Assembly: GCA_947501275.1 (NCBI GenBank)
Contig: CANMVD010000012.1
Coordinates: forward strand, 1-64,000
DNA from: an uncultured Tateyamaria sp.
Lineage (GTDB): Bacteria > Pseudomonadota > Alphaproteobacteria > Rhodobacterales > Rhodobacteraceae
Length of the DNA: 64,000 bases
Direction of reading: 5' to 3'
Below, one piece after another: positions 42,654 to 44,415 of this stretch (its first letter is position 1; every line of letters starts with the position of its first letter). The notes under the pieces were generated by a model. It had not been told where the DNA came from. It made no database searches and saw only the letters and a list, made by a program, of their open reading frames with translations. The position numbers and the translations under genes are program-made.

Positions 42654-43723
42654 GCCATCCCGCCCTTGATCAACCCTTCGGCGATACGGGCATAGGCCTG
42701 AGCCATCGGACCGTCACCTGCCGCAATCGGCGTGCCCCCGTCACCGGACAACCGCGTGTCCAGATCAATCGGCAGCGCCCCCAACAACGGCACACCCATT
42801 TTTTCGGCCTCGGCGGCCACCCCACCCTGCCCAAAAATCTGATGCTCCGCGCCGCAGTCCGGGCACACAAACAACGACATGTTCTCGATCAGGCCCAATA
42901 CCGGTGTCTTGAGGGTCGTAAACATATCCAAAGCCTTGCGCGCATCAATCAACGCAACGTCCTGTGGTGTGGACACAACAATAGCGCCCGTCAGCTCCGA
43001 CTTCGTACACAGAGTAAGTTGCACATCGCCGGTGCCGGGGGGCAAATCGACAAGCAACACATCCAGCTCGCCCCACTCCACCTGCCCCAACATCTGTTGC
43101 AGTGCCCCCATCAGCATGGGGCCACGCCACACCACGGCCTTGCCTTCTTCCATCATGAAGCCGATGGACATCAAGGTCACCCCATGCGCGTGCAGGGGAA
43201 TGATGGTCTTGCCGTCCGGCGAAGCGGGGCGCTTGTTAACCCCCATCATGCGGGGCTGCGAAGGCCCGTATATATCAGCATCGAGCAATCCCACTTTGCG
43301 CCCCGCCCGTGCCAAAGCGACAGCAAGGTTCGAAGACACTGTGGATTTGCCCACCCCCCCCTTGCCCGACCCAATGGCAAGGATACGTTTGACGCCCGTC
43401 GGTTTTGTCGGCCCGTCCTGAGGCTTGGGATGGCCGCCGACCTTCAGGCTGGGCGGTGCAGCAGGCTTCGGCGCGGGGCCGTGCGCAGTCAATGCCACGC
43501 GAACGGCCTCAACGCCCGGCAATGCGCGCACAGCGGCTTCGGCTGCGGCGCGCACCGGCTCCATCCGAGACGCAATATCCGGATTGGGCGCCTCAATCAC
43601 AAACTGAACGGCCGTGCCGTCCACCTGAAGCGCCCGAATCAAATCGCGGCTGATCAGGTCGCCGCCTTCAGGTAGCGCAATGCGCGCCAGAACCTGCGCA
43701 ACTTCATCTTTCGTTACAGCCAT
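42650..43723 (-). CDS. mrp: Mrp/NBP35-family P-loop ATPase (Fe-S cluster carrier)
   Basis: 357 aa. An N-terminal MIP18-like domain (residues 1-~85) is joined by a proline-rich linker to a ParA/MinD-type ATPase: [17 protein letters not shown] (deviant Walker A), [21 protein letters not shown] and [14 protein letters not shown] with the CxxC used for cluster binding. Probably a cytosolic Fe-S assembly or transfer factor. The start at 43723 is set by GGAG 8 nt upstream; a much longer frame to 43903 lacks support. Confidence 0.95.
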
Positions 43724-43847
43724 GCCCATTTCTCCGCCAGTATGACGCATTAACTGGCAGATTTTCGGGCAGGAACAAGAGCGGCTCGCGAAAAACGGCG
43801 CAAACGCTGAAAGCTTGGGCAACACGGTTGCTTTTTCAACCCAAACC

Positions 43848-43866
43848 CCATGCAATTGCTGCATGG
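43848..43866. repeat. inverted repeat CCATGCA-N5-TGCATGG
   Basis: Perfect 7-bp arms between mrp and the DUF1127 gene, ~83 bp before the DUF1127 start. Could be an operator or hairpin; a possible promoter for the DUF1127 gene (TTGTGC-N16-TAAGTT) lies just downstream of it. Confidence 0.35.
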
Positions 43867-43948
43867 CAGCATTGCTTACGCGTCTATTGTGCACATGCAG
43901 CATTGGACTAAGTTAGGTCGCATAGCGAACGAGTAGAAAGGCAAAACA

Positions 43949-44182
43949 ATGGCCTATTACAATGAAGTAGCACGGCGCGGAAACCTGATTGAGCGTACGC
44001 TTGGCACGGTATCTCGCTTCGTGAACGCGGCCGCCGAGCGGCGCGCAATGCGCACAAGCTACCGCAACACACTGGCAGAGCTTCAAACACTGTCAAACCG
44101 CGAACTGGCCGATCTGGGCCTGCACCGCTCCGAACTGAAGCGCATCGCGTGGGAATCGGCGCACAGTGCAAAAGCGCACTAA
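43949..44182 (+). CDS. DUF1127 small basic protein (CcaF1-like)
   Basis: 77 aa. The C-terminal ~40 residues form the DUF1127 motif (ELQTLSNRELADLGLHRSELKRIAWES). In Rhodobacter sphaeroides a DUF1127 protein called CcaF1 is encoded just upstream of, and co-transcribed with, RNAs carrying CCUCCUCCC loops, and it binds RNA. Here the same arrangement is seen: RNA hairpins start 12 bp after the stop codon. A likely stress-regulated RNA-binding factor by homology. GAAAGG precedes the ATG. Confidence 0.92.
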   Translation: MAYYNEVARRGNLIERTLGTVSRFVNAAAERRAMRTSYRNTLAELQTLSNRELADLGLHRSELKRIAWESAHSAKAH

Positions 44183-44194
44183 GAGTTAACGAGA

Positions 44195-44268
44195 TCAGAT
44201 GTTTCTCTCCTCCTCCCTGAAACATCTGAAATTGGCGGCGGCACCGACCTCCTCCCTGGTGTCGCCGC
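44195..44268 (+). ncRNA. cuckoo/CcsR-type RNA, first double-hairpin unit
   Basis: Hairpin 1: an 11-bp perfect stem (44195-44205 with 44219-44229), loop TCTCCTCCTCCCT. Hairpin 2: an 11-bp stem (44235-44245 with 44258-44268, one G-T pair), loop GACCTCCTCCCT, followed by a T-rich tract. Both loops expose the anti-Shine-Dalgarno-like CCTCCTCCC motif that defines alphaproteobacterial cuckoo RNAs (CcsR in R. sphaeroides). Probably processed from the DUF1127 transcript; exact ends cannot be read from sequence. Confidence 0.88.
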
Positions 44269-44280
44269 ACCTTTTCTTCA

Positions 44281-44297
44281 GCACCTGAGACAGGTGC
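44281..44297 (+). other. short linker hairpin between the two cuckoo units
   Basis: GCACCTG-AGA-CAGGTGC, a perfect 7-bp stem with a 3-nt loop lacking the CCTCC motif. It may be a processing signal separating the two RNAs. Confidence 0.5.
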
Positions 44298-44313
44298 ACC
44301 ACAGATACATTGG

Positions 44314-44383
44314 CGTGGTCCTCCTCCTCCCTGACCACGAAAATGTTGAAAGAGCGGCGGCCCCTCCTCCCTGGGGTCGCCGT
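44314..44383 (+). ncRNA. cuckoo/CcsR-type RNA, second double-hairpin unit
   Basis: Hairpin 3: CGTGGTC (44314-44320) with GACCACG (44333-44339), loop CTCCTCCTCCCT. Hairpin 4: an 11-bp stem (44354-44364 with 44373-44383, G-T pairs included), loop TCCTCCCT, running into TTTTT. It repeats the two-hairpin plan of the first unit with unrelated stem sequences but the same loop motif, a strong sign of selection on structure and loop. Confidence 0.88.
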
Positions 44384-44387
44384 TTTT
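44354..44387 (+). terminator. rho-independent terminator of the DUF1127-cuckoo transcript
   Basis: The fourth hairpin (GC-rich 11-bp stem) runs directly into TTTTTC, so the last cuckoo hairpin doubles as the transcription terminator. Confidence 0.75.
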
Positions 44388-44415
44388 CATTTCTCGCACA
44401 GGAAAATGCGTATGG

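Follow-up and report, generated by a model that had tools for sequence, protein, structure and literature searches.

A conserved tandem dyad and a candidate LsrB/VtlR-type regulator at DUF1127–cuckoo RNA loci of Rhodobacterales

Introduction

In Rhodobacter sphaeroides, the DUF1127 gene ccaF1 is reported to be co-transcribed with the small RNAs CcsR1–4, and a DUF1127 gene together with CcsR-like sRNAs is termed a CIN1 locus (PMC10253847). Cuckoo RNAs, the family of Reinkensmeier and Giegerich (2015), are described as two to four hairpins with a conserved loop (PMC4504443), and PMC3927594 gives the CCUCCUCCC loops of SmelA075 and SmelA099, and a two-hairpin R. sphaeroides RNA. In a 64,000-nucleotide stretch of DNA from an uncultured Tateyamaria sp., hereafter the window, a DUF1127 gene is followed by four hairpins with the same loop motif. 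What kind of locus is this, and what switches its RNAs on? The kind of locus is itself known; what is new is a conserved tandem dyad in front of it, together with a candidate regulator.

Results

A DUF1127 gene followed by four hairpins

The gene and its downstream region comprise the following features.

43949–44182, + strand: gene for a CcaF1-type DUF1127 small protein, 77 aa (Pfam match)
44193–44273, + strand: double-hairpin unit 1, CcsR1-like/cuckoo RNA (relaxed Rfam search)
44195–44229, + strand: hairpin 1, loop CCTCCTCCCT at 44209–44218 (motif, folding, pairing alignment)
44235–44268, + strand: hairpin 2, GCGGCGG stem, loop motif at 44248–44257 (motif, folding, pairing alignment)
44281–44297, + strand: spacer hairpin between the units, without the loop motif (folding)
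44304–44388, + strand: double-hairpin unit 2, CcsR1-like/cuckoo RNA (relaxed Rfam search)
44307–44346, + strand: hairpin 3, loop motif at 44320–44332, CCTCCTCCTCCCT (motif, folding)
44350–44387, + strand: hairpin 4 and terminator, GCGGCGG stem, loop motif at 44363–44372 (motif, folding)

The 77-aa product matches Pfam PF06568 (DUF1127) with an E value of 3.3e-10, which bears out the gene call of an earlier, sequence-only reading of this DNA. Behind the gene, CCTCCTCCCT starts at 44209, 44248, 44323 and 44363 on the + strand, with a chance expectation of 0.05 copies in the window. None of 100 shuffles of the window reached four copies, and in the whole genome (4,608,369 bases, both strands) the motif occurs only at these four sites, with two occurrences in the backward-read control. 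Folding of the hairpin region gives −99.8 kcal/mol (z −9.3; 0/200 shuffles as good). Each hairpin folded alone gives a z score between −4.0 and −7.2 and carries the motif in its loop, so that the earlier description of four hairpins with the motif in every loop (4/4) stands; for hairpin 2 alone, 1 of 200 shuffles folds equally well. The loop of hairpin 3 is longer by one CCT. Hairpin 4 ends in a terminator-like TTTTTC, which fits its assignment as the terminator. The stems had also been called unrelated: this is true of hairpin 1 against 2 and of 3 against 4, whereas stems 2 and 4 have GCGGCGGC in common.

The loop letters CCTCCT are the anti-Shine-Dalgarno core of a 16S-type 3' end, GGATCACCTCCTTTCT, which is present once in the genome at a site that we take to be the 3' end of the 16S rRNA. 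The genome encodes three further DUF1127 genes, none of which has the CCTCCTCCCT 10-mer.

For comparison across relatives, we used 81 loci, namely the window and the best 80 of at least 192 confirmed relatives of the DUF1127 protein; the ten best-ranked relatives among the matches listed are Tateyamaria. The gene order mrp–DUF1127–hairpins–uvrD recurs in relatives. Searches with the window's own proteins located mrp in 58 of the 80 relative loci and uvrD in 45, both together in 33 and neither in 10, several of the loci ending early.

Kinship with CcsR, CIN1 and cuckoo RNAs

At the gathering threshold, Rfam finds only a tRNA in the window. When 651 bases were searched with relaxed settings, each unit matched CcsR1 (RF02791) along all of its 83 positions, unit 1 with 44.6 bits (E 1.2e-9) and unit 2 with 32.9 bits (E 3.5e-6), and unit 1 scored 48.1 bits against ar14 (RF02344). 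The curated cut-offs of 65.3 bits for CcsR1 and 58.8 bits for ar14 are reached by neither unit and not by unit 1, respectively. The suggested division into two double-hairpin units is supported by the full-length alignments, and the covariance search proposed along with it placed both units end to end on CcsR1 with scores under the cut-off.

Among 12 named relative loci, 3 of the 62 listed matches passed an Rfam cut-off. Directly behind DUF1127, the first unit passes that of CcsR1 in Gemmobacter (L079, 87.6 bits) and Cypionkella (L094, 69.1 bits), and a Paracoccus locus (L074) passes that of ar14; the best scores in two Tateyamaria loci (L036 and L040), at 45–48, are like those of the window. 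The full-length CcsR1 alignment, with the Gemmobacter and Cypionkella units above the cut-off at the equivalent place, confirms the kinship with ccaF1–CcsR and the cuckoo RNAs that the sequence-only reading had recognized. In the window itself, adjacent hairpins carry CCUCCUCCC loops (4/4) and a short DUF1127 gene stands in front of them. Because the alignments are full-length yet below the cut-off, and in view of the descriptions in the literature, we assign the locus to the known CIN1/cuckoo kind and not to the gathering-level CcsR1 matches.

The locus shares with ccaF1–CcsR1–4 the DUF1127 gene, the double hairpins with CCUCCUCCC loops and the terminator at the end; the R. sphaeroides locus has four units, whereas the window has two, both below the CcsR1 cut-off. 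With NfeR1/ar14 of Rhizobiales (RF02344) it has in common the identical loop motif in each hairpin, the variable stems and an upstream box resembling the LsrB type, but NfeR1/ar14 has three hairpins and is a free-standing gene without DUF1127. From the cuckoo RNA family at large, the window locus differs in the GCGGCGG arm common to its second hairpins.

Stems and loops across relatives

We aligned 12 orthologous first units and compared their pairing with 500 shuffles. In this alignment 97.0% of the cells pair, a value reached by none of the shuffles. Both sides are changed in 5 of 22 pairs (2/500 shuffles equal), and the covariation score is matched by 0/500 shuffles. The number of further pair types does not exceed that of the shuffles (226/500), and two hairpin 1 pairs are open in 4 of the 12 rows.

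The 81 loci hold 464 loop sites behind the DUF1127 gene. A stem of at least 7 pairs encloses 385 of these sites, against 49 with shuffled flanks, and a stem of at least 9 pairs encloses 333, against 7. By this stem test, the number of hairpins per locus ranges from none (12/81 loci) to 16, the latter in one named relative. Among the 54 loci whose first pair is 28–50 nt apart, a GCGGCGG-like arm is found in hairpin 2 of 34 and in hairpin 1 of none. The stems are thus variable but paired, as in the cuckoo/CIN1 kind, with the GCGGCGG arm of the second hairpins as a partial exception.

These data bear on the idea that the hairpins do nothing but stabilise the 3' end of the DUF1127 mRNA and terminate it. 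Hairpin 4 does have the form of a terminator, but constant loops, compensatory changes in the stems, the 16 hairpins of one relative and the existence of hairpin units with no DUF1127 gene detected (see below) make this explanation highly improbable.

Two copies of CCTCCTCCC at a distance of 20–50 nt were found in 352 of 390 Rhodobacterales genomes. The backward control of this pattern is not clean (about 80/390 rows, counted by eye); almost all of its matches share the strand of the true ones and so probably fall inside the same arrays. In a sample of 385 Alphaproteobacteria, the pattern occurs in 19 genomes (4 of the 5 Rhodobacteraceae and 15 of the 380 others), against 13 rows by eye in the backward control, and the exact pattern is of little informative value outside the Rhodobacteraceae because it is about as frequent there as the control. 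Absence of the exact pattern from the other 38 genomes of the order does not always mean a loss. The hairpins of genus g8, a genus that contributes 8 of the 30 loci fetched by the dyad pattern described below, have variant or single CCTCCTCC sites; the loops of these loci (L335–L342) are mostly CTCCTCCC or TCCTCC instead of CCTCCTCCC, and the g8 loci therefore escape exact-motif scans.

The modules are reordered in some Sulfitobacter and Roseobacter loci (L093, L095, L100, L108, L111 and L055), where two to four loop sites precede DUF1127 and one lies behind it, or none in L055.

A tandem dyad in the promoter region

Upstream of the DUF1127 gene, the following elements were assigned.

43724–43948, + strand: intergenic promoter region between the divergent mrp/apbC and DUF1127 genes (mrp start set at 43723, MAVTKDEV...)
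43857–43871, + strand: dyad D1, TGCTGCATGGCAGCA, a 6-3-6 inverted repeat (upstream alignment)
43887–43902, + strand: dyad D2, TTGTGCACATGCAGCA, starting 30 nt after D1 and overlapping a −35-like element (upstream alignment)
43909–43914, + strand: putative −10-like element TAAGTT, 16 nt after TTGTGC

The conserved upstream block of the aligned loci reads TGCTGC-ATR-GCAGCA at D1 and TTGTGCANNNGCAGCA at D2. The dyad pair is present with at most 5 mismatches in 28 positions in 77 of the 81 loci; none of 405 shuffled sequences has fewer than 7 mismatches. The starts of D1 and D2 are 30 or 31 nt apart in 75 of these 77 loci, and dyad and downstream loop site occur together in 73 of the 81. The dyad is missing from L073 and L112, which have CCTCCTCC loops, and from L046 and L047, which have TCCTCC sites. 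Conversely, L056, L070 and L076 carry the dyad with no downstream loop site (the sequence of L076 ends 360 nt after the gene start), and in L055 the loop site lies upstream only.

In a further analysis, loci were fetched by the dyad alone, irrespective of DUF1127 and loops. Its strict pattern occurs in 188 of 380 Rhodobacterales genomes, with no backward-control match among the matches listed, and in 2 of 385 genomes of the Alphaproteobacteria sample, both Rhodobacteraceae. All 31 dyads in the 30 loci fetched in this way are followed within 1.4 kb by anti-Shine-Dalgarno loop sites, CCTCCTCC at 29 and TCCTCC variants at 2, and at each of the 30 dyads rechecked (L323 was left out) at least one site lies in a stem of at least 7 pairs. 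A DUF1127 gene was detected behind 28 of the 31 dyads and none at the other 3. The conservation of the dyad across Rhodobacterales is solid.

We also searched 72,556 plasmid records with the promoter region 43845–43945 as query. The single match, a weak one (E 0.02), lies on Phaeobacter inhibens plasmid pP88_c, where D1 with three mismatches and D2 with none immediately precede a double hairpin that is not annotated and has the motif in both loops. No DUF1127 gene lies between dyad and double hairpin, nor is one listed in the 2.5 kb examined.

At promoters activated by LysR proteins, the usual plan is a pair of sites separated by about three turns of the helix, with the proximal site on the −35 element. 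The window promoter reads TTGTGC, 16 nt, TAAGTT, and its near-invariant −35-like TTGTGC is part of the dyad. The place of the −10-like element varies in relatives, with TAT-TT-like or CCAT-TT-like sequences, and the −10 is less well conserved than the dyad. A consensus scan for sigma-70 gave no match at the dyad. By eye, the upstream block had been read as a possible sigma-32 promoter, a reading that was dropped when an alignment of 12 loci placed the conservation in the dyad instead. The sequence does not by itself point to induction by heat or singlet oxygen, its conserved promoter feature being a LysR-like tandem dyad and not an evident heat-shock promoter.

The same locus might nevertheless be transcribed by a heat-shock sigma factor, RpoHI/RpoHII, with the dyad bound by another factor or only modulating. 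The ccaF1–CcsR locus of R. sphaeroides is reported to be under RpoHI/RpoHII and not LysR (PMC10253847, PMC8307010), another R. sphaeroides DUF1127 gene is treated likewise (PMC10673084), and CCCAT-TT stands at the −10 place in a number of relatives. This must be set against the near-invariance of TTGTGC as a part of the dyad, the better conservation of the dyad compared with the −10, and the TAAGTT of the window, which is not of the CCCAT type; a CCCAT-type −10 is absent at that spacing, the consensus scan having covered sigma-70 only. We consider heat-shock control of this form unlikely, and RpoHI/RpoHII control and LysR control are not exclusive. As far as the descriptions of ccaF1–CcsR that we compared go, a LysR-like tandem dyad such as that preceding the window locus is not mentioned for it.

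The LysR reading is consistent with the similarity of the dyad to a known box. The motif of Brucella VtlR is given as CAATGCAGCCATGCA (PMC12595884), and positions 43860–43874 match its reverse complement at 14 of 15 positions, the sole mismatch being an A where the consensus GCAT-N3-TG-N3-T has the T of its TG. The exact TGCATRGCNGCATTG occurs once in the window genome, at the dyad; box-like 15-mers with at most two mismatches number 157 in the genome, against 33 in the backward control. The complete dyad pair is absent from each of the three other DUF1127 genes of this genome, one of which (L237) has a two-mismatch box 264 nt before the DUF1127 match.

A candidate LsrB/VtlR-type regulator

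Of 90 class genomes with a trxB match, 30 trxB loci were fetched; 14 of these have a LysR neighbour of trxB, and the 14 proteins served as query. The best match in the window genome, at C4:260821-261684 within the gene G000:C4:260821-261723, scores 371.6 bits, against 178.5 bits for the second of 56 LysR matches. The nearest solved structure of its product is 9HH1 (E 8.2e-70; next 8.4e-28), which is Agrobacterium tumefaciens LsrB, deposited by PMC11975290. A clear LsrB/VtlR relative is thus encoded in the window genome and, at E 1e-60 or better, in 341 of 341 Rhodobacterales genomes. LsrB is placed only in Rhizobiales by PMC11975290, as judged on selected representatives, and described as conserved in many alphaproteobacteria by PMC7486931; our count for the order agrees with the latter.

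The candidate has a single cysteine and lacks the cysteine pairs of A. tumefaciens LsrB, so that a redox switch as in that protein is not to be expected. In Agrobacterium, lsrB is a neighbour of trxB. The corresponding place beside trxB was considered for the window regulator and rejected: when the translations are inspected by eye, its neighbours resemble an Lrp/AsnC protein and a cyclase.

Brucella VtlR is reported to control three DUF1127 genes and an sRNA (PMC12595884). The VtlR/LsrB regulons of Brucella, Agrobacterium and Sinorhizobium resemble the present system in their genes for DUF1127 or other small proteins, their anti-Shine-Dalgarno sRNAs and a LysR-like box of near-identical sequence; they differ in that the window regulator is not next to trxB and that one base of the box is changed. 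Control of the AbcR RNAs by LsrB in S. meliloti is denied in PMC7486931 and stated in PMC8844928. Among the matches listed, no paper linked LsrB/VtlR or another LysR protein with CcsR/CcaF1, the primary papers on CcsR/CcaF1 lying outside the scope of this search; in three co-mentioning or related papers, the LysR and CcsR/CcaF1 words stand only apart or in references. We propose that an LsrB/VtlR-type LysR protein drives the DUF1127–hairpin loci, the candidate described here being the putative binding protein.

A SorX-like sRNA (L313:4333-4395, on G000:C4) lies directly behind the LsrB/VtlR-type gene, with 44.9 bits at a cut-off of 46.6. SorX matches were found beside the LsrB/VtlR-type gene in 17 of 17 relatives scanned (20 loci fetched), 16 of them over the cut-off, an arrangement that mirrors vtlR–abcR of Rhizobiales.

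Discussion

Starting from the observed gene, hairpins, loop conservation, compensatory pairing, dyad and presence of a regulator gene, we consider it likely that the window holds a CIN1-type locus with one transcript and anti-Shine-Dalgarno silencing RNAs, activated by an LsrB/VtlR-type LysR protein through the tandem dyad. Transcription would be switched on by the activator bound to the dyad at 43857–43902, the second half of which overlaps a weak −35. The predicted single transcript would consist of a CcaF1-like DUF1127 mRNA with two double-hairpin anti-Shine-Dalgarno RNAs in its 3' part, and hairpin 4 would end it. The RNAs would then be cut from the precursor, as is done by RNase E in R. 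sphaeroides, and their CCUCCUCCCU loops would pair with the extended Shine-Dalgarno sites of selected mRNAs and block their translation. Several equal loops on each transcript would raise the dose.

By analogy with NfeR1 of S. meliloti, the window RNAs most likely silence mRNAs by pairing with Shine-Dalgarno sites. The three loops of NfeR1 are described as redundant in silencing mRNAs at the ribosome-binding site, in reporter assays with a triple-loop mutant control that the authors read as base-pairing silencing, and the NfeR1 gene is activated by LsrB (PMC10746234). Alternatively, the loops might titrate a protein instead of pairing with mRNAs. The DUF1127 protein would be one candidate, since CcaF1, whose gene accompanies the CcsR RNAs, is described as binding RNA. 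The NfeR1 assays speak against titration, as do the fixed loop letters, which are the anti-Shine-Dalgarno sequence, and the four dyad-led hairpin loci with no DUF1127 gene detected (three from the dyad pattern search and the plasmid), and we regard it as quite unlikely. As for targets of the favoured pairing with mRNAs, GGGAGGA located 3–10 nt before ATG was found 0 times in the window, against an expectation of 1.2.

The window locus combines both outputs, loops like those of NfeR1 and a DUF1127 gene like those under VtlR. In A. tumefaciens, short DUF1127 proteins act on the sensor kinase PhoR, and CcaF1 can reportedly take their place (PMC12501420); the DUF1127 protein of the window may thus have a second role.

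With somewhat more reserve, we favour a broader view in which the DUF1127–cuckoo locus of Rhodobacterales is the core target of the LsrB/VtlR-type regulator via the tandem dyad, the LysR/DUF1127/anti-Shine-Dalgarno circuit of Rhizobiales is as old as the class, and cuckoo RNAs that stand alone, on chromosomes as well as on a plasmid, are driven from the same box. The locus is a widely conserved, probable riboregulator of a main marine bacterial group, most copies of which lie under the Rfam cut-offs. Dyad and candidate regulator reduce what switches these RNAs on to a two-gene experiment, and LysR control, if true, joins two systems that have been studied separately, CcsR/CcaF1 and VtlR/LsrB.

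Similar hairpins occur on viral contigs. In IMG/VR stretches (L115–L234, from at least 120 pattern matches), two neighbouring stems of at least 8 pairs were found in 40 of 120, against 2 of 120 with shuffled flanks; the dyad was absent from these 120 stretches among the matches listed, and L196, at least, looks like a coding repeat. The viral anti-Shine-Dalgarno hairpins are possibly phage-borne decoys or silencers. Some of the cuckoo-type hairpins lie near phage helicase, exonuclease or ribonucleotide reductase genes. One viral stretch is matched by two phages isolated on Rhizobium, RHph_TM3_3_3 and RHph_N28_2 (L364:2501-2561 and L365:2501-2551); their hairpins overlap an annotated hypothetical-protein gene, and the loop motif of RHph_N28_2 is carried by the second hairpin only.
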